Assembly: GCF_900105685.1 (NCBI RefSeq)
Contig: NZ_LT629781.1
Coordinates: 1,984,001-2,048,000, forward strand
Length of the DNA: 64,000 bases
Source of the DNA: Verrucomicrobium sp. GAS474
GTDB lineage: Bacteria; Verrucomicrobiota; Verrucomicrobiia; Methylacidiphilales; GAS474
Reading direction: 5' to 3'
Positions 12,681 through 35,743 of the stretch are shown here, one piece after another. Under the pieces are notes generated by a model. It was not told the origin of the DNA, did no database searches, and saw only the letters and a program-made list of their open reading frames with translations. Both the position numbers and the translations under genes were made by a program. Every line of letters starts with the position of its first letter. Positions within the stretch are counted from its first letter, which is position 1.

Positions 12681-12977
12681 CCCCTGGGGATTTGCACAGA
12701 GCGTGCCATTTTCCCCGAACGGGCCGCTCCCCATCTGGAGAATCGATTTTCAGCCCGGTAACCGGGCGCGGCGGAGCGGGTACAATGCATGCCCCGGCGG
12801 GGGGGATTCCCTGCATTTTTCAGGAAGGCGAAGGGGAGATTGTTTTAACATTTATCTGAAAAGTTAGGGCGTTTGCCTGAATCCATTAGTGCTTTCCGGG
12901 GGTGATTGTTACGATCGGAACTAAAGGCGTTTTCCCGCTCTCTTCCGCTCCTTTCAGCTTCCCACCCCCCCCGCATC
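12681..12977. promoter_or_regulatory. Divergent intergenic region with palindrome
   Basis: This 297-bp spacer separates the Gfo/Idh/MocA gene from the propeller gene. It contains GCCCGGT-A-ACCGGGC (12753-12767), a 7-1-7 palindrome about 73 bp upstream of the Gfo/Idh start, and an A/T-rich stretch at 12840-12865 (TGTTTTAACATTTATC) that may serve the rightward promoter. No gene or RNA was recognised. Which regulator binds is unknown. Confidence 0.45.
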
Positions 12978-15131
12978 ATGACCTCCATCGCGACCCCCCT
13001 GCTTCCCGATTCCTCTCTTTTGAATCCCTTTAAAAAGCTCCAGTATGCTTGTAAGTATATTTACGCAATCACGCTTACTGCCTTGCTTTGCCTCCCCCTG
13101 AGCGCCGAAGCTGGGGAGGAGGCGGTTCATTGGGAAAGCAGCGGTTGGGGCGGTGGCGGATTCTTTTGGTCGGCGGTCTTCCATCCGACCAAAAAAGGGG
13201 TCCTCTACATGGGCGGCGACGTCCTCGGGATCTACAAGACCGACGATTCCGGGAAACAGTGGCGCCTGATCAACAACGGCCTGCCCAGTTATGGAGTCTT
13301 TTCTTTGGCCGTCACTCCGGCAAGCCCGGAGAGCATTTACGCCCTCACTGTGAACGGCCCTGCCCGAAGCCTCGACGGCGGCGAACATTGGACGGCGAAC
13401 CCCGTCCAGAAGGAAATCGTCTGCCAGAAGTACAAGAGCATCCGGGCCATCGCCGCCGATCCGGTCGATGCCGACCTGGTCTACGTCGGCAGCCCGAAGG
13501 GGAAGATCTTCAAGAGCGAGGACGGCGCGAAGACGTGGAAGGAAGTCTACGCCCTGGCCCAGGCGGGCACCGTCTTCAGCGTCGTGATCAATCCGCGCCA
13601 GCCGACCCAGGTCTTCGGCGCGACGGCGACGGCGGGGATCGTCGAGAGCGACGACCGCGGCGTCACCTGGAAGGAACTCGCCACCCCGAAGAAGGCGGCC
13701 CACATCACCGTTTCCCCCTCCGACGGGGTCCTCTACGGCGCGTTCTTCGACCAGGGCGTCTACAAGTCGGCCGACGGCGGCAAGACGTGGACGAAGACCG
13801 CGATGGAGGCGAACGCGAAGAACAACGCCATCGAGGTCGTCGTCAATCCCCAGGACGCGAACACCGTCTACTGCCTCGCCGCCGACCACTCCGCCTGGGC
13901 CGGCGCCGTCTACACCAGCCACGACGCCGGGGCGACCTGGACGCGGAACAACCGGATGAAGCCCGATCTCGAAAACGATCCGACCAACCCGAAGGATCCC
14001 GACTTCCTGAAGACCGGCACCGGCCCGATGAGCTCGGTGACCAACCTCGCCCTCTCGCCGAATTTCCCGAACGACCTCTTCATCTCGGCCAACTGGCGGA
14101 GCGCCTACAGCGAGGACGGCGGGAAGACGTGGGCGGAGCGGGCGCGCGGTGCCGACATCTCCTGCGTCACCGACATCCGCTTCTTCAAGAACCGCACCTA
14201 CGCCGCGAACATGGACGAGGGCGTCCTGATGAGCGAGAACAACGGGGCGAACTGGAAGGCCATCTGGCCCCTCTCCTACCAGCCGAAGGTTTCCGGCGAC
14301 GTCTGGCGGGTCGCGATTTCCGAGGGGAGCGCCGGCGACCGGATCGTCGCCGCGGCGAGCCCCTGGAACAACGTCCCCCGGAAGAACGTCATCCTGCTCA
14401 GCGAGGACGGCGGCGCGACGCCTCCCGCCGTCATTGACGCCGGTCTCCCCGACTACCTCCCGAAGGCGAACACGATGTGGGACCACGGCTACCTCCGGGC
14501 GCTGGCCGCCGACCCCAACGACGCGAAGGTCTTCTACGCCGGGATCGACGGCGATCCCGAGGGCGACAAGACGGGCGGCGGCGTCTTCAAGTCGGAGGAC
14601 GGCGGCTACACCTGGAAGCAGCTCCCCGTCCAGCCCGGCAGCCGCCGGATGTATTACGGCCTCGCCGTCGACCCGACGAACTCCAAGCGGATCTTCTGGG
14701 GGACCTGCGGCAACGGCGGCGGCCTCTACCGGAGCGAGGACGGCGGCAATTCGTGGAGCTACGTCTTCAAGGACGAGGGATGGATCTTCAACCTCCATGT
14801 CTCGGCCGAGGGGATCGTCTACGCCGCGGGGAAGAACCTGTGGGCCAGCGCCGACCACGGCACGACCTGGAAGAAGATCTCCAACTTCGACGCCAGCCAG
14901 GCGATCATGGGCCTCGAGACGAAGCCCGGCAGCCCCAACACGATCTGGATCTCCCGCGTCACCTGGGGGAGCGACGCCGGCGGCGGCATCTACAAGACCA
15001 CCGACGGCGGCGCGACCTGGTCCGAGATCACGGGCGACATCCCTTACCGGAAACCCCTCGTCCTCCGCTACAACGCCGCCACGGGCGAACTCTGGACGGG
15101 CTTCGTGGGGCTCTTCAAAACCAAGCAATAG
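12978..15131 (+). CDS. Secreted multi-Asp-box beta-propeller protein (BNR/sortilin-like), paralogue 1
   Basis: A 717-residue exported protein. A long N-region is followed by a hydrophobic core and probable cleavage after AEA (about residue 45). The mature part holds about 13 Asp-box motifs (S/T-x-D-x-G-x-T-W, for example SADGGKTWTK, SEDGGYTWKQ, TTDGGATWSE), which fold as two beta-propellers. The N-terminal WGGGGFFWSAVFHPTKKGVLY resembles the start of GH74 xyloglucanases, but I could not verify catalytic aspartates, so glycanase activity is only a suggestion. It precedes the pseudopilin cassette by 86 bp. A second paralogue (23860) closes the same cluster. The first ~150 bp use more A/T-rich codons than the rest. 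Confidence 0.85.
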   Translation: MTSIATPLLPDSSLLNPFKKLQYACKYIYAITLTALLCLPLSAEAGEEAVHWESSGWGGGGFFWSAVFHPTKKGVLYMGGDVLGIYKTDDSGKQWRLINNGLPSYGVFSLAVTPASPESIYALTVNGPARSLDGGEHWTANPVQKEIVCQKYKSIRAIAADPVDADLVYVGSPKGKIFKSEDGAKTWKEVYALAQAGTVFSVVINPRQPTQVFGATATAGIVESDDRGVTWKELATPKKAAHITVSPSDGVLYGAFFDQGVYKSADGGKTWTKTAMEANAKNNAIEVVVNPQDANTVYCLAADHSAWAGAVYTSHDAGATWTRNNRMKPDLENDPTNPKDPDFLKTGTGPMSSVTNLALSPNFPNDLFISANWRSAYSEDGGKTWAERARGADISCVTDIRFFKNRTYAANMDEGVLMSENNGANWKAIWPLSYQPKVSGDVWRVAISEGSAGDRIVAAASPWNNVPRKNVILLSEDGGATPPAVIDAGLPDYLPKANTMWDHGYLRALAADPNDAKVFYAGIDGDPEGDKTGGGVFKSEDGGYTWKQLPVQPGSRRMYYGLAVDPTNSKRIFWGTCGNGGGLYRSEDGGNSWSYVFKDEGWIFNLHVSAEGIVYAAGKNLWASADHGTTWKKISNFDASQAIMGLETKPGSPNTIWISRVTWGSDAGGGIYKTTDGGATWSEITGDIPYRKPLVLRYNAATGELWTGFVGLFKTKQ

Positions 15132-23859: not shown

Positions 23860-26601
23860 GTGAAATCTCTCCCCCGTTCCGTGAAAATCGTCGCCTTCGG
23901 TCTCACTCTCGCCCTGGGGTCGGGGCTCCCCGGCGCGGCGCGGGCCGACGATGCCCAGGCGGCCCAGGCGGACTGGCAGCCGTGCGGCTGGGGCGGCGGC
24001 GGCTTCTTCTATTCGGCCGTCTTCCATCCGACGCGCGACGGCGTGATCTACATGGGCGGCGACGTCAATGGCACCTACCGGACCGACGACCACGGCCTCC
24101 ACTGGAAGATCATCAACAACGGGCTCATCGACCACGGGGTCTTCTCCCTCGCCGTCGACCGGACGAATCCCGACACCGTCTATGCCGCGACCGAGGGCGG
24201 CCTCTGCAAGAGCGTCGACCAGGGGGAGCATTGGCAGCTCCTTCCCCAGACGGGAAAGAAGGATCTCCACATCACCGGCGAGAAGGGAAAGAGCTTCCGC
24301 AGCGTCGCCGTCGATCCGACGAACGGGAACAACGTCTATGCGGGGACGCCCCTCGGCAAGGTCTACAAGAGCGCCGACGGCGGCCAGAGCTGGAACGTCG
24401 CCTACACCGTCCCCGTCGCCGCCGCCCCGCCCGGCACCCTCCGGGGCCAGTTCGGCAAGGCGAGCGGCGGCGCCTACGGCGGGTTCTGGTTCCAGATGAA
24501 GTATCCCGACGGGGCCAACGCCGCCGAGTGCACCGGGATCGGCTTCCGCTTCCAGGCCCAGCCGAACAAGGCGGTGACGCTGCCCCGCACCTGCCTCGTC
24601 ATCGTCCAGACCTCCGCCGGGGTCTCCTACCGGAGCAAGAACCTCCCCGAGATCTTCGGCAGCGCCGAGCCCCAGACCGTCATCCTGAACACCGCCGACT
24701 TCGCCCTCGATCCCGATTACGTCGCGAAGAACCCGGCGAAGGCCGCCACGCTCCCCCCGAAGCCCGATTGGGCGACGGTGAACCGCCTCGACTTTGCCTG
24801 TTCCGGCGCCCTCGACCAGGAGGCCTACGCCGGGGGCTTCAGCACCTTCTTCTACGTCACCCCCGCCGGGCAGACGCCGATCAAGGACTTCACCGTCGAC
24901 AAGGACATCAAGACCTACGCGAACTTCCGCCTCGGCGAGGCGACGGGCGGCCCGGTCTTCACCGTCGCCGTCTCGCCGAAGAATCCCTTGCTGGTCGCCG
25001 CCGCGAGCGCCGACGTCGGCCTCGTCCTCAGCCAGGACGGCGGGACGACGTGGAAGGAACTCGACACGCCGAAGAAGGCCTCCGGGGTGACCTTCGATCC
25101 GTCCGATCCGAACACGCTCTACGGGGCCTTCTTCGGCGACGGCATCTGGCGCTCGACCGACCTGGGCAAGAGCTGGACGAAGCTGACCGAGGGGGTCGCC
25201 GCCGACTTCAACTTCCACGAGGTCGTCGTCGGTCCGCCCCTGCCCGCCTCGGCCCATCCGACCCCTTCCGCCCCGGCCAACGGCAAGGCCCCCGCTCCCC
25301 TTCCGGCGACCTTCTCCGACCTCTACGCCATCGGCGACAAGGCGTGGGCGGGCGGCCTCTACGTCTCGAACGACAACGGGGCGACCTGGAAAAGGATCTC
25401 GGAGCTCCACGTCGACATCGACGCCGATCCGACGATGCAGCGGGTCTTCAGCTCGTCGCCGAAGATGACCACGGCCCTCAGCGCGCCGACGAACCTCACG
25501 ATCAACCCGGCCAAGCCCTCGGAACTCTACATGAGCGCCAACTGGTGGCCCTGCTGGAGCGACGACGGCGGCATGACGTGGCACGAGCGCGACCGGGGGG
25601 CCGACATCACCTGCGTCGCCGACATCCGCTTCGGATCGAACGGAAAGAAGACCTACGTCAGCGCGATGGACGAGGGGACCCTCGTCACCGAGAACGGAGG
25701 CGAGACCTGGCGGCAGCTCTGGCCGCTCAAGTTCACCGCCGACCTCAGCGGCCACGACTGGCGTCTGAACGTCACCTCGGTCAACGGCGTCGACCGGATC
25801 ATCAGCACCGTCACCCCGTGGGACGGGCGGTATCCGAACCGCGTCGTCGTCAGCGAGGACGGCGGCGGCACCTTCAGGGTGACGACCGAGGGACTGCCCA
25901 ATTACCTCCCGCACGAGAACGTCATGTGGGGGACCGGCTATGCCCGGGCGCTGGCCGTCGATCCGAAGAACCCGATGATCGTCTACCTCGGCATCGACGG
26001 CGACGCGACGTCGACCAAGAGCGGGGGCGGCGTCTTCAAGTCGCTCGACGGCGGCCTCACGTGGAAGCAGCTGGCGAACCAGCCGGGCAGCCGCCGCATG
26101 TTCTACGGCCTGGCCGTCGACCCGACCGAATCGAAGCGGATCTATTGGTCGGGCATGGGGATGAAGGGCGGCGTCTACCGGAGCGAGGACGGCGGCGAGA
26201 GCTGGAAGAACGTCCTGCCGAACAACCAATGGTGCTTCAACATCCACGTCGGCCCCGACGGCGCGATCTACGCCCTCGACACGAACGTCTGGCGGAGCGT
26301 CGACCACGGGGAGAACTGGAAGAAGATCACGAACTTCCCGGAGAACTGGGCCGGGATGGGCTTCGACATCGATCCGCAGAATCCGAAGACGATGTGGCTC
26401 TCCCGCGGCACCTGGGACGGCGGCTCCACCGGGGGCGTCTACAAGACCGTCGACGGCGGCGCGACCTGGGACCTCATCACCGGGAACATCCCCTACGTGA
26501 AGCCGATGGTCCTCCGCTTCAATCCGGAGACCCGCGAGCTCTGGGCGGGCGGCGTCGGCATCTACAAGCTGAAGCAGCCGTTGGTCGCCCCTTCCAACTG
26601 A
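23860..26601 (+). CDS. Secreted multi-Asp-box beta-propeller protein with inserted domain, paralogue 2
   Basis: A 913-residue exported protein (GTG start, signal peptide cleaved after ARA near residue 29). It is a paralogue of the 12978 gene: both begin with WGGGGFFYSAVFHPT and share about 13 Asp boxes in the same order. Between the third and fourth boxes (about residues 188-365) this copy alone carries an extra ~180-residue stretch, starting near PPGTLRGQFGKASGGAYGG and ending before TYANFRLGEATGG. Its content (SGALDQEAYAGGFSTFFYV) looks like a jelly-roll carbohydrate-binding domain. The insert explains the length difference from the paralogue (717). Enzyme activity is unproven; GH74-like glycanase or binding protein are both possible. 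Confidence 0.85.
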   Translation: MKSLPRSVKIVAFGLTLALGSGLPGAARADDAQAAQADWQPCGWGGGGFFYSAVFHPTRDGVIYMGGDVNGTYRTDDHGLHWKIINNGLIDHGVFSLAVDRTNPDTVYAATEGGLCKSVDQGEHWQLLPQTGKKDLHITGEKGKSFRSVAVDPTNGNNVYAGTPLGKVYKSADGGQSWNVAYTVPVAAAPPGTLRGQFGKASGGAYGGFWFQMKYPDGANAAECTGIGFRFQAQPNKAVTLPRTCLVIVQTSAGVSYRSKNLPEIFGSAEPQTVILNTADFALDPDYVAKNPAKAATLPPKPDWATVNRLDFACSGALDQEAYAGGFSTFFYVTPAGQTPIKDFTVDKDIKTYANFRLGEATGGPVFTVAVSPKNPLLVAAASADVGLVLSQDGGTTWKELDTPKKASGVTFDPSDPNTLYGAFFGDGIWRSTDLGKSWTKLTEGVAADFNFHEVVVGPPLPASAHPTPSAPANGKAPAPLPATFSDLYAIGDKAWAGGLYVSNDNGATWKRISELHVDIDADPTMQRVFSSSPKMTTALSAPTNLTINPAKPSELYMSANWWPCWSDDGGMTWHERDRGADITCVADIRFGSNGKKTYVSAMDEGTLVTENGGETWRQLWPLKFTADLSGHDWRLNVTSVNGVDRIISTVTPWDGRYPNRVVVSEDGGGTFRVTTEGLPNYLPHENVMWGTGYARALAVDPKNPMIVYLGIDGDATSTKSGGGVFKSLDGGLTWKQLANQPGSRRMFYGLAVDPTESKRIYWSGMGMKGGVYRSEDGGESWKNVLPNNQWCFNIHVGPDGAIYALDTNVWRSVDHGENWKKITNFPENWAGMGFDIDPQNPKTMWLSRGTWDGGSTGGVYKTVDGGATWDLITGNIPYVKPMVLRFNPETRELWAGGVGIYKLKQPLVAPSN

Positions 26602-26625
26602 CGCTTCTTCCCAGTGCTCCCCGCC

Positions 26626-28575
26626 ATGCGCCTCGCCTCCCTCTTCCAGGATCACGCCGTCCTCCAGCGCGATCTCCCGATCCCCGTCTGGGGCAGCGCC
26701 GCTCCCGGCGAGCGGGTCACCGTCACCCTCGCCGGGGAGACGGCCCGGGTCGCCGCCGCCGATGACGGCCGCTGGCTCGTCCGCTTCCGGGCGCGTCCGG
26801 CGGGCGGTCCCTTCGAGCTCGCGGCGGAGTCGGCCTCGGGCCGCGTCGTCGTCCGCGACCTCCTCGTCGGCGAGGTCTGGCTCTGCTCCGGCCAGTCGAA
26901 CATGGAGTGGACGCTGAACCGGTCGAAGCCGTTCGACGAGGTTGCGACGGCGCCGATGCCCGAAGTCCGCCTGCTGACGGTCCAGAATCCCGCCCGCCTG
27001 GTCCGTCAGGCCGAGGTCGTGGGACGCTGGGAGGTCGCGACCCCCGAGGCCCTCGCCGCCTTCTCGGCGGTCGGCTGCTGGTTCGGACGGCGGATCCATG
27101 CGGAGCTCGGCGTCCCCGTCGGCCTCATCTGCACGGCGTGGGGCGGGACCCGTATCCAGGCCTGGATCAGCCGCGAGGCCCTCATGCAGGACCTCCTCGG
27201 CCTCGACGAGATCGCCAAGTTCGAGGGCGAGGTCTTCGATCCGACGCTGCCGCAGAAGGAGACCTACGCGGATTACGCCGATTGGGAGAAGCGGGGCGCG
27301 CCGCAGGACGCCGGGAACCGGGGCCTCGCCGAGGGCTGGGCCGCCCCCGGCTTCGCCGACGGATCGTGGCAGACCATGCCCCTCCCTTCCCGCTGGCAGA
27401 GCCACGGCCATCCCGGGAGCGGCGTCTTCTGGTTCCGCCGCACCGTCGTCGTCCCGCCCGCCTGGCGCGGACGCGATCTCACGCTCCGCCTCGGGATGGT
27501 CGACAAGCACGACGACACCTGGGTGAACGGCGAGCGGGTCGGCGGCCTCTCCTGGGCCGACGGCCCGATGACGTGGGCGACGCCCCGCGTCTATCCCGTT
27601 CCCGCCCGCCTCGTCGCCGCCGACGGGAGCGTCGCCATCGCGGTCCGGGTCCGTTCCCACGTCTATCACGGCGGGATCATCGGAGGGGGGGAGAAGCCGG
27701 GCATGAGCCTCGGCTTGACTCTTCCGCTCCCCGACGAGGAGACCGACGCCACCGACCGCCTCTCCCTCGTCGGGGAGTGGCGCTACACCGTCGAGCAGGA
27801 TTGGGGCCTCGTCATCCCGCCGACGACGGCGTGGGGGGCGGAGGACCAGAACTCCCCCGCCATTCTCTTCGCCAGCCGGGTCGCGCCGCTCCTCCCCTTC
27901 GCGCTGCGCGGCGTCCTCTGGTACCAGGGGGAATCGAACGCCTCGGAGGCGAGGGCCTACCGCCGCCTGATGCGGACGCTGATCGGCGACTGGCGCCGCG
28001 CGTGGGGGCAGGGTGATTTCCCGTTCCTCCAGGTGCAGCTGGCCAATTACATGCCCGCCGCCGCCGAGCCGCTCGCGAGCGAGTGGGCCGAGCTGCGCGA
28101 GGCCCAGGCGATGGCCCTCGCCGAGCCGCGCACCGGCCTCGCCGTGGCGATCGACGTCGGCGACGCGGGCGACATCCACCCGCTCGACAAGCGGACCGTC
28201 GGCCTCCGGCTGGCCGCGTGGGCCTTGGCCGAGACCTACGGACGGGGCGGCCTCCCCTCCGGCCCGATCTACGCCGATCACGCCGTCGAATCCCGCGCCA
28301 CCGGGGAGCCCGCCCGGCTGCGGGTCCGCTTCCGCCATGCGGCGGGGCTGCGGACGCGGGACGGCGGCGCGCCCCGACACGTCGCCCTCTGCGGCGGCGA
28401 CGGGATCTTCGTCTGGGCCGAGGCCGCGATCGAGGGCGAGAGCCTCGTCGCCTGGCACCCGGAGATCGCCGTCCCCCGGGCCCTCCGCTACGCCTGGGCC
28501 GACAACCCGGAAGGCTGCAACCTCGTCAATGCCGCCGACCTCCCCGCCGTTCCCTTCCGCACCGACGCGGAGTAA
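26626..28575 (+). CDS. Sialate O-acetylesterase-like carbohydrate esterase
   Basis: A 649-residue enzyme of the SASA (sialate O-acetylesterase) family. It begins with LFQDHAVLQRDLPIPVWGSA, an Ig-like N-terminal domain. The SGNH-type nucleophile is in CSGQSNMEW (Ser91), WYQGESNA forms the second block, and GDAGDIHPLDK the Asp-His block. Between about residues 240 and 340 sits a galactose-binding sandwich insert (SGVFWFRRTVVVPPAWRGRDL), typical of the family. No signal peptide is visible, so it may act in the cytoplasm or be exported by another route. Substrates of relatives range from sialic acids to acetylated plant polymers. A GTG four codons earlier is an alternative start. It is closely followed by the dehydrogenase gene (19 bp). 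Confidence 0.9.
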   Translation: MRLASLFQDHAVLQRDLPIPVWGSAAPGERVTVTLAGETARVAAADDGRWLVRFRARPAGGPFELAAESASGRVVVRDLLVGEVWLCSGQSNMEWTLNRSKPFDEVATAPMPEVRLLTVQNPARLVRQAEVVGRWEVATPEALAAFSAVGCWFGRRIHAELGVPVGLICTAWGGTRIQAWISREALMQDLLGLDEIAKFEGEVFDPTLPQKETYADYADWEKRGAPQDAGNRGLAEGWAAPGFADGSWQTMPLPSRWQSHGHPGSGVFWFRRTVVVPPAWRGRDLTLRLGMVDKHDDTWVNGERVGGLSWADGPMTWATPRVYPVPARLVAADGSVAIAVRVRSHVYHGGIIGGGEKPGMSLGLTLPLPDEETDATDRLSLVGEWRYTVEQDWGLVIPPTTAWGAEDQNSPAILFASRVAPLLPFALRGVLWYQGESNASEARAYRRLMRTLIGDWRRAWGQGDFPFLQVQLANYMPAAAEPLASEWAELREAQAMALAEPRTGLAVAIDVGDAGDIHPLDKRTVGLRLAAWALAETYGRGGLPSGPIYADHAVESRATGEPARLRVRFRHAAGLRTRDGGAPRHVALCGGDGIFVWAEAAIEGESLVAWHPEIAVPRALRYAWADNPEGCNLVNAADLPAVPFRTDAE

Positions 28576-28594: not shown

Positions 28595-29620
28595 ATGCAA
28601 ATCAACCAAGTCGTTATTACCGGCAAGCGCGAGGTCTCTCTCCAGTCCTTGACGCTGGAAGAAGGCAACCTCGCACCCAACGAAGTCCTCATCGAATCGG
28701 AGCGGAGCTTCATCAGCGCCGGGACCGAGCTGGCCGGGTATACCGCCACCGATGCCGACGTCTACAAGGAAGGGGCCTGGTGCGCCTACCCGTGGAAGTC
28801 GGGCTACGGCAACGTCGGCCGCGTCCTCGACGCGGGGAACGGTCTCTCCGCCTGGATCGGGAAGCGGGTCTACACGAACGGCCCCCACGCCTCCGTCTTC
28901 CGCTACACGCTCGATCCCATCTACCGGATCATCGCGTCGGTGCCGGAGGGGATTTCCCTCGAGGACGCCGTCGCCGCCCGGATGGCGATGGTGGCCATGT
29001 CGGGCCTCGACAACGCGAAGCCCGGATACGCCCGGTGGGTCGTCGTCATCGGCCTCGGGATGGTCGGCAACCTCGCGGCCCAGTTCTTCCGCCTCACCGG
29101 CGCCCACGTCATCGGCGTCGACCCGAGCGCGCGGCGGCGGCAGGTCGCCCAGGATTGCGGCATCCCCCACGTCCTCTCGGGGACCGAGGAAGAAGTCGCC
29201 GCCGGGGTCGCCGAACTGACCGGCGGCAAGCTCGCCGAGGTCACCGTCGACGCCGTCGGTCACAGCGCCGTCTCCCTCCAGGCCCTCCGCCTCACGGCGC
29301 AGGGCGGGGAAGTCGTCGTCCTCGGCAGCCCCCGCACCGAATTCGCCGGGAACCTCACCGAGGTCTTCCGCACCGCCCACATCCGGTGGATCACGATCAA
29401 GGGGGCGCTCGAATGGTACGCGCCGACCGAATCGCCTCTCGACCACCTGTACACGCAGCAGAAGAAGCTGGCGGCGATCTATTCCTGGATCGCCGACGGA
29501 CGCCTCCGCATCGCCCCGCTCCTGACCCATCTCCTTCCCCCGCAGGAGATCAAGGCGGCCTACGAGGGGTTGCTGAACCAGAAAGAGGATTACGTCGGGG
29601 TGGTGCTGAAGTGGAAGTGA
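28595..29620 (+). CDS. MDR-superfamily zinc-binding-type dehydrogenase lacking zinc ligands
   Basis: A 341-residue medium-chain dehydrogenase/reductase. The GroES-like N-domain includes SFISAGTELAGYTATDADVY, and the Rossmann domain has VVVIGLGMVGNLAAQFFRLTG for NAD(P) binding. The usual GHE and structural four-Cys motifs of zinc alcohol dehydrogenases are not present, so it is probably zinc-independent or uses unusual ligands. This resembles MDR proteins annotated as zinc-binding alcohol dehydrogenases near sugar catabolic genes; the substrate is unknown. It follows the esterase by 19 bp and ends the plus-strand run, with a strong hairpin after its stop. Confidence 0.85.
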   Translation: MQINQVVITGKREVSLQSLTLEEGNLAPNEVLIESERSFISAGTELAGYTATDADVYKEGAWCAYPWKSGYGNVGRVLDAGNGLSAWIGKRVYTNGPHASVFRYTLDPIYRIIASVPEGISLEDAVAARMAMVAMSGLDNAKPGYARWVVVIGLGMVGNLAAQFFRLTGAHVIGVDPSARRRQVAQDCGIPHVLSGTEEEVAAGVAELTGGKLAEVTVDAVGHSAVSLQALRLTAQGGEVVVLGSPRTEFAGNLTEVFRTAHIRWITIKGALEWYAPTESPLDHLYTQQKKLAAIYSWIADGRLRIAPLLTHLLPPQEIKAAYEGLLNQKEDYVGVVLKWK

Positions 29621-29760: not shown

Positions 29761-31164
29761 TCAGCGGAAGACGATGTCGTGGGCGTGGCGGGTGACGAGG
29801 TCGAGGTCGTCGGCGTTGGCGACGTGCCGGCCGCCGAGCTCGAAGTTCTCGAAGACGACCCCGGTGACGGGATGGGCCGCGTCGTGGCCGCAGATGATGC
29901 TCACGGTGTAGCCGTCGTTGTGCTGGCTCTTCAGCGCCCGGACGTTGCGGATGGCGACGTTGCGGACGTGGCCGCGGACGGGATCGGTGTTCCAGCGCGA
30001 CTTCAGGGTGCGGATGTCGATCAGGGTGTCGAAGTGGTGCTCGATGCGGATCGTGTCCCAGGTCACGTTCTCGACGCAGGCGCGGTCGCCGTTGTGGATG
30101 CCGAAGACCGAGCCGAACTCGTGGACGGCGAGGACGTCGATGTTCCGGAAGTGGATGTCGCGGATCACCTCGGTCGTCGTCTCGTAGCCGATCTCCATCG
30201 CGGAGCCACCGTTGATGTTGTAGAAGACCGAGTCGGAGACGACCACGTCCTCCACCGTCCCGGTCCAGGGCTTGATGGCGGGGCTGAGGGGGAGGCGCTC
30301 GTCGGGGCGCGAGGTGTTGGAGAGCGACTTCACGGCGATGTTGTCGTCGCCGTTGTGGAGGCAGCAGCCGGAGATGCGGATCTTCCGGGAGCCGACGATG
30401 TCGATCCCGTCGGAGCTCATCTCGCTGGCGATCTGCCGGAGGCCGTGGACGGAGACGTCGGTGCAGGCCCCGAGGACGAGCATCCATTGGCAGGGGCCGA
30501 GCATGAGGATGTCGTCGACGCGGGCGTTGGTGCAATGGTCGAGGACGATGCCCTTGCGGCGCTCGCCGTCGCCGCGCTCGACCCAATAGCCGCCGTCGAG
30601 GATGCCGTAGCCGCCGATGCGGACGCCGTCGACGTGGTAGGCCCGGATGCTTCCCCGGACGACGGCCCCGGGCTCGATCCAGCAAGTCTCCCCCTCGCGG
30701 AGGTGGATGAGCCCCGCCTCGTGGACGCGGCCCGTCTCGAAGACGCGGACGTCGGGCCCGGTCGGCGTCGCGGGGGCGAAGGGACGGGCGTAGAGATAGA
30801 GGAGGGGCTGTCCGGCGACCTCGATCTGGAGGTTCCGGGGTTCGGGAAGGGTGAAGTGGAGGCGGCGCTCGGAGAGTGTCGTCTCGATCCCGAGGACGAG
30901 GGGGCGGATGAAGAAGGTGCCGGGCTGGGGGGAGCCGGTCATCTCGATCTCGATTTCGACTTCGACGGGGCCGCCGCACTCGAAGGAGGCGTGGTGGGCC
31001 GCCTCGTGATGGAGGACGTCGAGGGGGATGCCGCCGACCCGCACGCGGAAGACGGCGGAGCGCCGGAGGGAGGACGGATAGAGATGGGGCTTCGGGGCCG
31101 GGGAGGCCTTGGCGACGGTCCCGGAGAGGGAGGGAACCGGGGGTTCGCAGGTGCGACTGGTCAT
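29761..31164 (-). CDS. GH28-like right-handed beta-helix glycoside hydrolase, cytoplasmic
   Basis: A 467-residue protein. The N-terminal ~130 residues form a beta-sandwich-like domain; the remainder is a parallel beta-helix with GH28-type motifs: SSDGIDIVGSRKI (Asp252, Asp255) and HNGDDNIAVKS (Asp273, Asp274). The GH28 'GHG' position appears as NINGGSAMEIG, so the usual His is missing and the enzyme may be a variant polygalacturonase-like hydrolase or have another substrate. No signal peptide follows the ATG at 31164. The promoter region holds a palindrome (31231-31244), and the chimeric regulator gene lies immediately upstream in the same orientation. It is probably part of a pectin/rhamnogalacturonan module with the GH78-like gene. 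Confidence 0.8.
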   Translation of the reverse strand: MTSRTCEPPVPSLSGTVAKASPAPKPHLYPSSLRRSAVFRVRVGGIPLDVLHHEAAHHASFECGGPVEVEIEIEMTGSPQPGTFFIRPLVLGIETTLSERRLHFTLPEPRNLQIEVAGQPLLYLYARPFAPATPTGPDVRVFETGRVHEAGLIHLREGETCWIEPGAVVRGSIRAYHVDGVRIGGYGILDGGYWVERGDGERRKGIVLDHCTNARVDDILMLGPCQWMLVLGACTDVSVHGLRQIASEMSSDGIDIVGSRKIRISGCCLHNGDDNIAVKSLSNTSRPDERLPLSPAIKPWTGTVEDVVVSDSVFYNINGGSAMEIGYETTTEVIRDIHFRNIDVLAVHEFGSVFGIHNGDRACVENVTWDTIRIEHHFDTLIDIRTLKSRWNTDPVRGHVRNVAIRNVRALKSQHNDGYTVSIICGHDAAHPVTGVVFENFELGGRHVANADDLDLVTRHAHDIVFR

Positions 31165-31230: not shown

Positions 31231-31244
31231 TTGAAATGTTTCAA
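31231..31244. promoter_or_regulatory. Candidate operator upstream of the GH28-like gene
   Basis: TTGAAA-TG-TTTCAA is a perfect 6-2-6 inverted repeat 67 bp from the GH28-like start and 62 bp beyond the stop of the regulator gene. Its size and symmetry suit a GntR- or LacI-type repressor. The neighbouring chimeric regulator is the obvious candidate, but no binding data exist. Confidence 0.5.
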
Positions 31245-31305
31245 CATCCCGACGGCCTTCCGGCGGTGTGCCCAATGAGGCGCGGAAAACGGGAGGAAGA
31301 GCCGC

Positions 31306-33240
31306 TCAGCGGCTTTTAAGGACGGAGGTCCGGAGGGCCGAGACGGCGAGGAGGCCGAGCGTCGTCGATTGGGCCGGATTGACCGCGATGTCGAGGTAGT
31401 CGATCGGCTTGCCCGGTTCCGGGTTGATCCATTCGAGGGTGTAGAGATAGGCGTGCCGCTCGACCGCTTCCCCCGCTTCGCTTTGGTTGACCGGGGCCAT
31501 GCGGGCCTCGGGGAAGTCGAAGTGGGGAAGGTCGGGCCACCAGTCCTGGATGTTCGCCCGCAGGAACTCGGGCGAGACCGGGCCGGTCGGGTGATCGGCG
31601 GGGGGCTGGCCGAGGGGGACGAGGGCGATCTCGGCGACGGGCTTCTTCCCGCGAAGGAAACTGTACGTGGCGAACGGTTTCAGGAACCGGGCGTAGCCGC
31701 ACCCGTGAAGGAAGTAGACGGCCTCGACCTTCGCCCCGATCGGGACGCGGAGGCGGGTGGGGAGTTCCTGCGCGTTTCCCTTCGTGTTGACGCTCGACTG
31801 GAAGACGACGGCCCCGCAATCGACGCGACGCGGCCCGCCGAGGATGCGGAAGGGGACCCCGTGGATCGAGCGGACGCCGGGGGCCATGTTCTTGAGCGGA
31901 AGGTCTCCGAGCCAGCCGCGCCGGAAGTTGAGCGGCCGGTTCATGTGGGGGGCGAGGTCGAGCTCCAGGAAGCGCGAGGCGTCGACCCGCGCGATCTTCT
32001 CGTAGGGCCGGAGGAGCGCCGTCTCCAGGTTCGGATCGGGGCACGGTTCGAGGCGGGGGGCCTTGTCCTTCGGCCCCTGGACCGAGCGGAGGAAGGCGGG
32101 CGTGGCGCCGGGAGCTTTCTTCAGGCGGGGGAGGTCCCGGGCCGACGGGGGCGGGGCCGTCCGGCTGGGGCCGGTGGAGCCGCGCAGGATCAGCTCCGGC
32201 TGGATGCGGATGCTGAAGGGGCCCTGGGGCAGGCCGGGATCGTTCCGCTTCCGGGCGAGCCGCTGCACCATCCGGAAGGCGGTCTCCTGGATGAGGTTGA
32301 AGTTGGCCTCGATGACGGTGATCGGCGGGGTGAGGGTGCGGAGGATCTGGGCGTCCCGCAGGGAGACGAGGGAGAGGTCGCGGGGCAGGTGCTTCTTGCG
32401 CGCGTTCAGTTTCTCGACGAGGAAGGGGATGTTCGAGTCGTTCTCGGTGTAGTCGATCAGCGCGGTCACCTCGTTCCATTCCCCGGCGAGGCGGTCGACG
32501 AGGTCGGCGATGTCCTCGCGGAGGGGGAGGGAGTTGTTCGGAAGCTGGATCCGCCCGGCCGATGCGGCGCAGCCGTGCTGGGCGCAGAGGTTCTTCCAGG
32601 CGGTGACGATCTCCGTGAGGGAGGCGGTCCAGGGCGGGGGGCACATGAGGGCGAATTCCCGGTGGCCCTGCTCCAGGAGGTGCTCGAAGGCGAGTTCGAC
32701 GGCGCGGGGATAGTCCCCGAGGATCGACGGGCAGACGTCGACCGGATTGCCGACGCAGACGGCCGGGATGCCGTTGCCGACCAGCCGCGCCATCGCCTCC
32801 TCCCAGTAGCGGATGCCGTAGCCGAATGGGGGATCGAAGACGACGCCCTGCGTCTTCCCGTCGTCGAGCCGGTGGAGGAGGGCGACGGCCTCCTCCTGCG
32901 TCTCCCAGCTGTGGACCTCGAGGTCGATGCCGAGGTCCTTCGCCGTCTTGCGGTAGCTGCGGAGGTAGATGGAGCGGTGGGCGAGCACCAGGTGGCACGT
33001 GAAGGGGGCCGCGCCCGCCGGGGGCCGCTGCGAGGCGCCGAAGAGCCGGTAGCCCTGGCGGGAGACGAGGCCCTCCGCGACGAGGCGGGCCATGGCGCGA
33101 TTCAGCGCGTAATGCCGGATGCCGAGGGTCTTCGCCAGCGCGCGTTCGGAGGGGAGGCGGTCCCCGTCGCCGATCTTCGCCTCCTTCAACCAATTGCGGA
33201 GCAGGGTTTCCGCCTCGTGGACGAGCGTGCCGAAGGCCAT
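31306..33240 (-). CDS. Chimeric GntR/LacI transcriptional regulator with C-terminal beta-sandwich-like domain
   Basis: A 644-residue one-component regulator. Residues 1-70 are a GntR winged helix (GDRLPSERALAKTLGIRHYALNRAMARLVAEGLV). Residues ~80-350 are a LacI/periplasmic-binding-like sensor (TQGVVFDPPFGYG, PSILGDYPRAVELAFEHLLEQGHREFALMCP). This two-part layout is that of Bacillus AraR. Unusually, a Pro-rich linker leads to a further ~210-residue domain (430-640) with RSIHGVPFRILGGPRRV, KVEAVYFLHGCGY and YLYTLEWINPEPGKPIDYLDI. That pattern is otherwise familiar from sugar-processing and secreted proteins of this phylum. It lies between, and likely controls, the GH28-like and divergent GH78-like genes. 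Confidence 0.85.
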   Translation of the reverse strand: MAFGTLVHEAETLLRNWLKEAKIGDGDRLPSERALAKTLGIRHYALNRAMARLVAEGLVSRQGYRLFGASQRPPAGAAPFTCHLVLAHRSIYLRSYRKTAKDLGIDLEVHSWETQEEAVALLHRLDDGKTQGVVFDPPFGYGIRYWEEAMARLVGNGIPAVCVGNPVDVCPSILGDYPRAVELAFEHLLEQGHREFALMCPPPWTASLTEIVTAWKNLCAQHGCAASAGRIQLPNNSLPLREDIADLVDRLAGEWNEVTALIDYTENDSNIPFLVEKLNARKKHLPRDLSLVSLRDAQILRTLTPPITVIEANFNLIQETAFRMVQRLARKRNDPGLPQGPFSIRIQPELILRGSTGPSRTAPPPSARDLPRLKKAPGATPAFLRSVQGPKDKAPRLEPCPDPNLETALLRPYEKIARVDASRFLELDLAPHMNRPLNFRRGWLGDLPLKNMAPGVRSIHGVPFRILGGPRRVDCGAVVFQSSVNTKGNAQELPTRLRVPIGAKVEAVYFLHGCGYARFLKPFATYSFLRGKKPVAEIALVPLGQPPADHPTGPVSPEFLRANIQDWWPDLPHFDFPEARMAPVNQSEAGEAVERHAYLYTLEWINPEPGKPIDYLDIAVNPAQSTTLGLLAVSALRTSVLKSR

Positions 33241-33349
33241 GGAAAATCATTTAAACATTCAGGTAAGGTTCGACAAGGGAAAGTTCGGTTCCGGCCGGTC
33301 CGCCTTTACAAATCGACGACGTCCCCTCCAATGGGAGAAGGACCCCCAC

Positions 33350-35743
33350 ATGCGTATCGCGCTGATTTCCCCGCCGTTCCGAGCAAGCCTTGGTTATTCG
33401 GTCGCCGAACCGTGGAAGACGGTTTCCCAGTGGCCCGCCTCGTGGGTGCTCCCGCCGGAGGGGAGGGAGTGGGAGAAGCCGTGGGTGGCGGCCTTCCGGT
33501 GCGCCTTCACCGCGGAGCCCGCGAAACGGGGGGGACGCCGCCGCGAGCGGATCCACGTGACCGCCGACGAGCGCTACGAACTCTACCTCGACGGGAAATG
33601 GATCGGCCGCGGCGCGGAGCGCGGGGACCGGGGGCGGTGGCACTACGAGTCATACGCCCTTGATCTCGCGCCGGGGGACCATTGCCTCGTCGCCTGCGTC
33701 TGGGCGTTGGGCCGGTTCGCGCCGTGGGCCCAGGTCTCGATCGCCCCCGGCTTCTTCTGCTGCCCCGAAAGCGAGGCGCTGATCCCCCGTTTGGCGACCG
33801 GCCTCGGGCCGTGGGAGATCCTTCCTTTGCGGGACCGCGTCTTCGAGAGCATGGACGAGGCGGCGGGAACGGCCATGGGCGCGGGGCCGAGCGAGCGGAT
33901 CGATACCCGCCTCACTCCCTGGGGCTGGGAGGAGGGGAAGGGGACGGGATGGGCTTCGGTCCGCCTCGGCGAGGGCGGCTATCACGGAGAGCGCCCCCAA
34001 TCGACGACGCCGACCCATTGGCTCCGTCCCGCTTCGCTTCCCCCACAGCGGAGCCGCCCCTGGAAGCGATTCCGGATCTTCCGCGCGGAATCGATCGCGC
34101 CCGGCGACGGCCTCGCGCTGTTGAAAGAGGGAAAACCGGTGACACTCCCCGCCCGGACGAGGGCCGTCCTCCTCGTCGACCTGGACGATTATCTCTGCGC
34201 CTATCCCGAGCTCCGCTGGAGCGGCGGCGCGGGGAGCCGGATCTCCCTCGGCTGGGCCGAGGCCCTGCGCGATCCCGAGACGGGGGAGAAGCGGCGGGCG
34301 GCGGTGCCGCTCGACAGCCGCTTCGTCGGCCCCGCCGACGAGGTGATCGCCGACGGCGGCGCGGGACGCCGGTGGCGGCCCCTGTGGTGGCGCTGCGGCT
34401 GCTACGTCGAGCTGCGGGTCGAGGTCGGCGGGGAGCCGTTGACGCTCGAGGGCATGACGTTTTTCGAGACCGGCTATCCGCTGCGGGTCGAGAGCCGCTG
34501 GACGACGCCCGATCCCGAGCTGGCCCGCCTCTTCGCCGTCAACCGGCGGACGCTGGAGGCGTGCCTCCACGAGACCTACACCGATTGCCCCTACTACGAG
34601 CAGATGATGTACGTCGGCGACACCCGGCTCCAGTGCCTCCTCACCTATGCGCTGGGCCGGGAGGAACGGCCCCAGCGGAAGGCGCTCGAGCTCTTCGACG
34701 CCTCCCGGGCGAACCCGACCGGCCTCGTCACGGCCTCCTACCCCAGCGGGGGCGGCCAGCTCATCCCCCCCTTCGCGCTCTGGTGGATCGCCATGGTCCA
34801 CGACTTCGCCCGGTGGCGGGGACATCCCGATTACATCGCGGCGCGGCTCCCGGGCGTCCGCGCCGTCCTCGATCTCTTCCGCCGGGAGGCCGGCGTCGAG
34901 GGGGACGGAGAAGGGCTCGTGAGGGGCCTCGCCGGTTGGAATTTCTACGACTCGGAATATCGCCCGGGCGGGATCCCGAAGGGGTGTGTCCCCGGAGGCT
35001 CCTCCGCCGTCCTCCAGGCCCACTGGATTCTGGTGCTCGGGATGGCCGTCGAGCTGGAGGAGTACGCCGGGGAGCCCGAGTTGGCGGCCCGGTACCGGCG
35101 GTGGCGCCGGGCGGCGGTGACGGCCCTGTGGAAGACCTTCTGGGACGAGGAGCGGGGCCTCCTCGCCGACGATGCCGCCCATACGGCGTGGTCGGAGCAG
35201 GCGCAATGCCTCGCCCTGCTCGCCGGAATCTTCGACGGCCACGCGCGCAAAAAGGCCCGCGTCTGGAAGGGGCTGGAGGAGGGGACCGATCTCGTCCGGT
35301 CGAGTTGCTACTTCGCCCATTACTATCTCGAAGCCTGCCTCGACGCGGGCCGGGCCGATCTCTTCGCCGCCCGTCTGGAGACATGGCGGGAGGGACTCCG
35401 CGCCGGGTTCCGGACGACGCCGGAGAACTTCGGCACCACCCGTTCCGATTGCCATGCGTGGAGCGCCCATCCGCTCTACCACTACCTTACCGGCGTCCTC
35501 GGCATCCGGCCGGGAGCGGGGAAATTCGGCTTCGAGACGGTCGTGATCGCCCCGCAACTCGGCTCCCTGCCCGAGGCCTCGGGCGAACTGGCCCACCCCC
35601 TCGGCCCGATCTCGGTCCGGATCACCCGCCGAAAAGGAGGTTTTAGGGCCGAAATCGTCCTTCCAAACGGTTTAAAGGGCCTTTTCCGGGCAAAAGGGGT
35701 CGAAAAACCGCTCCGGGCCGGAAAACAGCACCTCGTGTGGTAG
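33350..35743 (+). CDS. GH78-like alpha-L-rhamnosidase family protein
   Basis: A 797-residue protein with N-terminal beta-sandwich domains (HVTADERYELYLDGKWIGRG), an (alpha/alpha)6-barrel from about residue 395, and a short C-terminal sandwich. The barrel entry motif HETYTDCPYYEQMMYVGDTRLQ contains the Glu expected for the GH78 general acid, although the canonical DCPQRDER form is altered. Rhamnosidases release rhamnose from rhamnogalacturonan, glycosides or glycans. No signal peptide is visible. The ATG at 33350 was chosen because upstream sequence is the divergent promoter region of the regulator (109 bp). Pairing with the GH28-like gene and a dedicated regulator points to intracellular processing of pectin-derived oligomers. 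Confidence 0.85.
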   Translation: MRIALISPPFRASLGYSVAEPWKTVSQWPASWVLPPEGREWEKPWVAAFRCAFTAEPAKRGGRRRERIHVTADERYELYLDGKWIGRGAERGDRGRWHYESYALDLAPGDHCLVACVWALGRFAPWAQVSIAPGFFCCPESEALIPRLATGLGPWEILPLRDRVFESMDEAAGTAMGAGPSERIDTRLTPWGWEEGKGTGWASVRLGEGGYHGERPQSTTPTHWLRPASLPPQRSRPWKRFRIFRAESIAPGDGLALLKEGKPVTLPARTRAVLLVDLDDYLCAYPELRWSGGAGSRISLGWAEALRDPETGEKRRAAVPLDSRFVGPADEVIADGGAGRRWRPLWWRCGCYVELRVEVGGEPLTLEGMTFFETGYPLRVESRWTTPDPELARLFAVNRRTLEACLHETYTDCPYYEQMMYVGDTRLQCLLTYALGREERPQRKALELFDASRANPTGLVTASYPSGGGQLIPPFALWWIAMVHDFARWRGHPDYIAARLPGVRAVLDLFRREAGVEGDGEGLVRGLAGWNFYDSEYRPGGIPKGCVPGGSSAVLQAHWILVLGMAVELEEYAGEPELAARYRRWRRAAVTALWKTFWDEERGLLADDAAHTAWSEQAQCLALLAGIFDGHARKKARVWKGLEEGTDLVRSSCYFAHYYLEACLDAGRADLFAARLETWREGLRAGFRTTPENFGTTRSDCHAWSAHPLYHYLTGVLGIRPGAGKFGFETVVIAPQLGSLPEASGELAHPLGPISVRITRRKGGFRAEIVLPNGLKGLFRAKGVEKPLRAGKQHLVW

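Follow-up and report, generated by a model that had tools for sequence, protein, structure and literature searches.

The AraR box has the consensus At(T/A)tGTaCGTAcaa(A/T)T, and the recognition helix of AraR includes residues R41 and R45 (PMC4218819). The order of parts in Bacillus subtilis AraR, a GntR helix followed by a LacI-type arabinose sensor in that protein, is also found in a regulator encoded by the DNA studied here, a stretch of 64,000 nucleotides from Verrucomicrobium sp. GAS474 (hereafter the window). This regulator is likewise placed beside polysaccharide genes, and the equivalent of AraR E30 is kept as E32. However, it differs from AraR by roughly 280 extra residues, comprising a linker and a C-terminal domain that we call X; ordinary AraR-type members are 360-390 aa long and end after the sensor, whereas the regulator has 644 aa. 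AraR-like DNA contacts should not be assumed, since R41 and R45 are replaced by H43 and N47. The candidate operator has a TTAA-type centre rather than the ACGT of AraR, and the likely substrate is pectin-type rather than arabinose alone. The regulator itself is an elaborated AraR-type protein. In the same phylum, both LacI-family and AraC-family regulators have relatives of X fused to them, and these too adjoin glycosidase genes; to our knowledge, textbook sugar regulators of these two families have no such C-terminal domain.

The open reading frame begins with ATG, and its exact coordinates were borne out. The gene and its parts are as follows:

31306..33240, minus strand: GntR-LacI-X regulator, 644 aa, with a three-part paralogue (L002) in its own genome
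33055..33216, minus strand: GntR winged helix-turn-helix, residues 9-62 (Pfam PF00392, E 5.1e-11), aligning with AraR structure 4egy
32167..33009, minus strand: LacI/periplasmic-binding-protein-like sensor, about residues 78-358 (PF13377 and LacI core structures)
31978..32166, minus strand: Pro-rich variable linker, residues 359-421, seen from sequence (family mean pairwise identity 0.19)
31324..31977, minus strand: domain X, about residues 422-639, uncatalogued, delimited by homologues, alignments and a predicted beta-sandwich

Both Pfam matches exceed the Pfam cut-off, and that of Peripla_BP_3 (PF13377, residues 186-356, E 3.7e-18) is complete, covering profile positions 2-167 of 167. LacI core structures align with the sensor from residue 100 (9nt3) or residue 83 (9nt6), and the winged helix aligns with the AraR DNA-binding domain (4egy) at E 4e-4. 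The motifs HGVPFRILGG, VYFLHGCGY (FLHGCGY), NIQDWW, YTLEWINP and YTLEWINPEPGKPIDYLDI are all in the C-terminal part. A preliminary description of this DNA had read an AraR-type GntR helix and LacI sensor here, followed by a Pro-rich linker and an extra domain with such motifs, and these results uphold that reading. The paralogue, at a distance of 1.5 Mb within this 3.76-Mb genome, has the same three parts, with 62% identity in the core and 71% in the C-terminal domain. Because of this paralogue and of homologues in many genomes, we regard the reading frame as a real gene and not a GC-rich artefact. The same genome also encodes X-less two-domain GntR-LacI cousins, each about 390 aa long. An antisense reading frame of 764 residues (31369-33663, plus strand) lies over the regulator; rather than a gene, it is most likely a shadow frame such as GC-rich coding DNA produces.

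We also examined the gene neighbourhood, in which the following features are relevant:

12981..15128, plus strand: second GH74-like BNR/sortilin-fold protein, a relative of 23860-26601 about 16-20 kb from the regulator and a candidate regulon member
23860..26601, plus strand: GH74-like BNR/sortilin-fold protein, conserved cluster
26614..28575, plus strand: SASA-type carbohydrate esterase, conserved cluster
28595..29620, plus strand: zinc-type (MDR) dehydrogenase, conserved cluster
29761..31164, minus strand: GH28 polygalacturonase-like enzyme (E 8e-12), conserved cluster
33350..35743, plus strand: GH78-type alpha-L-rhamnosidase (E 2e-16)

The row in the window runs GH74-like protein, SASA esterase, MDR dehydrogenase, GH28, regulator and GH78-type rhamnosidase, so that the regulator does sit between GH28-like and GH78-like genes, as had been proposed. 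In one relative (L074) the regulator is surrounded by homologues of all the window cluster genes except GH78. Across the relatives the partners are found in varying combinations: GH28 accompanies the regulator in L069, L074 and L076, SASA in L070-L072 and L074, the MDR dehydrogenase in L071, L074 and L146, and the GH74-like protein in L074, L076 and L146. The cluster of GH28, GH74-like protein, SASA esterase, dehydrogenase and regulator is conserved across distant genomes. Going by their family names, GH28, the rhamnosidase and the acetyl esterase point to a substrate of the pectin/rhamnogalacturonan type. Regulators in which X is joined to an AraC or LacI scaffold adjoin glycosidases as well (GH1/GH35, GH2/GH43 and GH3). 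As a comparison case, one X-less two-domain GntR-LacI regulator of the same genome (L085, 2496401-2497429) adjoins a further GH74-like BNR gene.

A palindrome had been reported in the next promoter. It is present in the GH28 promoter (TTGAAATGTTTCAA, 31231-31244), but comparative data shift its register, and the candidate sites are now:

31237..31246, no strand: TGTTTCAACA, the candidate core of an operator, which differs from TGTTTAAACA at one position and lies in the GH28 promoter, some 80 bp upstream of where GH28 starts
33248..33257, no strand: weak candidate site for autoregulation, differing from TGTTTAAACA at two positions, directly upstream of the regulator (35 of 500 shuffles as good)
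12841..12850, no strand: candidate operator TGTTTTAACA, upstream of the second GH74-like BNR gene (12981..15128)

The search covered 200 bp upstream of ten family members and ranked all 1,024 palindromic 10-mers. TGTTTAAACA ranked first, occurring with at most one mismatch in five of the ten members and exactly in four, compared with two for the next best palindrome. Composition-matched shuffles equalled the observed match in 0-6 of 500 trials for the five matching members, and none of 500 was as good as the GH28 promoter site, whose TGTTTCAACA core overlaps the palindrome first noted. The site in the regulator's own promoter is not significant alone, and the regulator promoters of L070, L071 and L072 have no convincing TGTTTAAACA site. 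Further sites of this type precede SASA in L070 and the GH74-like gene in L146, and that of L074 reads ATTTGTTTAAACAAAT, which shares its outer half-sites with the AraR box. TTGAAANNTTTCAA was tried as a shared operator and rejected; it occurs once in the 3.76-Mb genome, with no second exact copy, and has no consistent copies near the relatives. For this reason the TGTTTAAACA register is favoured, and the more likely operator core, judged by comparison of promoter sequences, would lie six bases beyond the noted palindrome, at 31237-31246. TGTTTAAACA-like sites, with one mismatch allowed, are not enriched genome-wide (15 vs. 14 for a reversed control), and their number by itself is uninformative. 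Four of these 15 are in the window or beside the paralogue, which jointly make up about 2% of the genome; as the choice of window was not random, we count this as no more than supporting evidence. The regulon was judged from site searches, and on that footing the GH74-like gene at 12981..15128 is a possible distant member.

Domain X is the part of the regulator that the catalogues do not cover. For residues 408-644, neither Pfam nor NCBIfam gave a model at E<=1, PDB sequences gave no match at E<=5, and PDB sequence searches with X and with its profile (alignment A1) returned nothing relevant even at E<=10. None of the X-bearing proteins scanned, the window protein included, matched a Pfam carbohydrate-binding module (CBM) over X. 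The idea of X as part of the LacI fold was ruled out, as X starts only after the LacI profile is complete and is also found on AraC, kinase, STAND and beta-helix proteins. Since some of its carriers have no LacI sensor at all, X must fold apart from that sensor. The two claims on which the preliminary description had staked its novelty, that the third domain is separable from the LacI sensor and that the architecture is not already catalogued, therefore both hold: the sensor profile ends before X, X is present without LacI, and the design is recurrent yet has no Pfam or NCBIfam entry. Targeted searches among 5.4 million openly available papers found no description of the GntR-LacI-X architecture, which is no proof of its absence from the literature. 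The domain family appears to be undescribed. Sequence searches found no solved relative of this uncatalogued domain, which is present on seven or more protein architectures.

Among Verrucomicrobiota, X is found on more than 100 proteins. Of 388 genomes from the phylum, 105 contain matches to its profile (alignment A1), for the most part on proteins 1,000-1,900 residues long, and all named relatives of the regulator belong to this phylum. The GntR-LacI-X proteins comprise that of the window, the paralogue L002 (by sequence) and, by Pfam scan, L004-L007, L011, L012, L014, L029, L030, L119, L120 and L125; L008 is also in this set, with the Pfam scan giving its sensor only. The same scan identified X on AraC-type regulators (L016, L017, L037), a classical LacI regulator (L018), right-handed beta-helix proteins (L015, L036, L038, L088/L149) and enzymes of the GH20 (L020, L022) and GH42 (L043) types. 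Signalling proteins carry it too, namely a Ser/Thr protein kinase (L134; also L142:1496-3136) and AAA_35 STAND-type ATPases (L143-L145), with X at the C-terminus. In the regulators examined, X is C-terminal in every one. The N-terminus of one beta-helix carrier (L149:7278-9695) looks like a signal peptide; together with the GH20- and GH42-type enzymes, this carrier bears out the earlier suggestion that the same domain is attached to secreted and sugar-processing proteins. Plasmids yielded no X like that of the window, the enzyme-type X giving one weak Deinococcus match, and viral contigs yielded no match to X. The fusion is spread over several families and orders.

In a maximum-likelihood tree of 66 copies of X, all 26 copies from regulators (GntR-LacI, AraC and LacI) form a single clade (support 98/94). 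This clade is sister to the beta-helix copies (98/81), and the two are joined at 100/98, apart from the enzyme copies and the kinase/STAND copies. The GntR-LacI copies fall on one side of a branch (98/85), and the kinase and STAND copies form a clade of their own (100/98); an earlier tree of 60 copies gave an unchanged picture with weaker support. These trees are most simply explained by a single regulatory subtype of X that was transferred among three DNA-binding scaffolds or persisted through swaps of them, the number of moves being left unsettled by four long-branch AraC/LacI copies. From the kinase and STAND copies, it seems that X is used in non-transcriptional signalling too.

Structure prediction supports the beta-sandwich that had been proposed for X, at modest confidence. 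The model, built from an alignment of limited depth (nine rows), has a pLDDT of 67 and a pTM of 0.70, with the NIQDWW region below 50 and poorly defined; the full protein folded without an alignment reached a pLDDT of 35, and that model was discarded. The model of X is evidence for a beta-sandwich and says nothing on function. The prediction for X is a beta-sandwich of roughly the size of the beta-sandwich CBMs (e.g. 8, 15, 29 and 86), and many of its homologues are attached to secreted saccharolytic proteins. However, it has no sequence match to any Pfam CBM, and its structural scores, Z 7-8.5 against CBMs and no higher than 8.5 across CBM8, CBM86, meprin and Eph-type sandwiches, are at about background for such models. 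The copies of X in regulators are also presumably cytoplasmic, unlike CBMs.

We measured conservation on an alignment of 15 GntR-LacI-X proteins (A4; 105 pairs), in which mean pairwise identity is 0.44 for the helix, 0.28 for the LacI sensor, 0.19 for the linker and 0.44 for X. Identity in X exceeded that in the sensor in every one of the 105 pairs, and 20 of the 27 invariant columns are inside X. Values of dN/dS between the window protein and its paralogue L002 (helix 0.23, sensor 0.66, linker 0.63, X 0.36) are rough, because they come from a single pair and short domains. X is more tightly held than the part that usually reads the sugar, and we therefore consider it essential to the design. 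Since it is carried by three kinds of regulator and by secreted proteins, and changes more slowly than the sensor, it is probably a second sensor.

On balance, we lean towards a one-component local regulator of the AraR kind, serving a pectin/rhamnogalacturonan-type cluster, with X as a second ligand site. Such a regulator would be cytoplasmic, would bind the TGTTTAAACA-type palindrome as a dimer and would probably act as a repressor of GH28, the GH74-like gene and neighbouring genes; in most relatives it would probably repress its own promoter too. The LacI domain may bind a monosaccharide or something similar. X, for its part, may bind a second ligand of the same pathway, probably an imported oligosaccharide, or else a pathway sugar, and so gate release. 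An oligomer, if imported, rather than the polymer, would meet a cytoplasmic regulator. A two-input gate of this kind would account for X being conserved while the adjoining sensor varies. Of the roles considered for X, ligand binding is the likeliest, an inference from a beta-sandwich model of modest quality (pLDDT 67). We advance more tentatively the wider idea that X is an undescribed Verrucomicrobiota family of ligand-binding domains and a portable intracellular glycan sensor, one clade of which was joined to GntR-LacI, LacI and AraC switches; X would there read the polysaccharide class and the fast-evolving LacI domain the particular sugar, and sister clades would serve STAND ATPases, kinases and secreted enzymes. 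One type of module might then serve the degrading machinery outside the cell as well as the switch within it. The presence of X on kinases and STAND ATPases is by itself no pointer to sugar and counts against the sugar reading. Little has been described of how Verrucomicrobiota sense polysaccharides. Should X be a sensor, the phylum would share one module between its outside enzymes and its inside switches, the regulons and substrates of many uncharacterised clusters could be predicted from X, and the two-input design would be a new layout for one-component regulators.

The conservation of X would fit equally well an oligomerisation or protein-interaction domain that fixes quaternary structure, for example by joining dimers bound at operators far apart, and that has no small ligand; an assembly domain would be kept in the same way while the sugar sensor drifts. 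The constant C-terminal position of X in the regulators examined and its presence on unrelated signalling scaffolds (kinase, STAND, AraC, LacI and GntR) speak for such a role. However, the nearest kin of the regulator copies are on right-handed beta-helix proteins, at least one of them with an N-terminus like a signal peptide, where sugar binding is the more natural function. In addition, the most constrained motifs (QDWW, YTLEW, FLHGCGY) contain several Trp, Tyr, His, Gln and Asp residues, a composition that suits a binding site, although it would also suit a core. We judge an assembly role somewhat unlikely, the beta-helix kinship and the aromatic-rich motifs being the only points that disfavour it.

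We consider it improbable that X is an enzyme or a catalytic remnant that modifies a pathway metabolite. This possibility is raised by a second structural aligner, in which the AziU3/U2 complex (7wuw, 8gs1), the closest solved fold to the model of X, came top with a Z of 12.2, well above the other rows (159-163 residues, the 12.2 being over 159; rmsd 3.2-3.4; 13% identity), and His, Asp and Gln are conserved in X. However, that identity is low and the model is of modest confidence, Foldseek with the same model found no match at E<=0.001, and AziU3/U2 and X have no sequence match at E<=10. AziU3/U2 is a complex of azinomycin (natural-product) biosynthesis and neither a regulator nor a lectin. 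Where the others have the conserved His, L018 has Ile and L125 has Trp, and the Gln is not kept outside the clade of regulators and beta-helix proteins. That the protein is an ordinary AraR-type regulator with X as a functionless passenger is barely credible: the X-less two-domain proteins of about 390 aa in its own genome speak for it, but X is under purifying selection, with conservation above that of the sensor in all pairs, which refutes the strict form of this explanation, and the fusion recurs across several families and orders.

Some other copies of X were also noted. The third copy in the genome of the window (L068:4360-7260) is on a secreted-looking protein of 967 residues with X at the N-terminus and no Pfam match. 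In some distant members of the phylum (family codes f62 and f67), a single genome has as many as 15 scored copies; the proteins concerned are 1,000-1,900 residues long, and many of them are without any Pfam domain.
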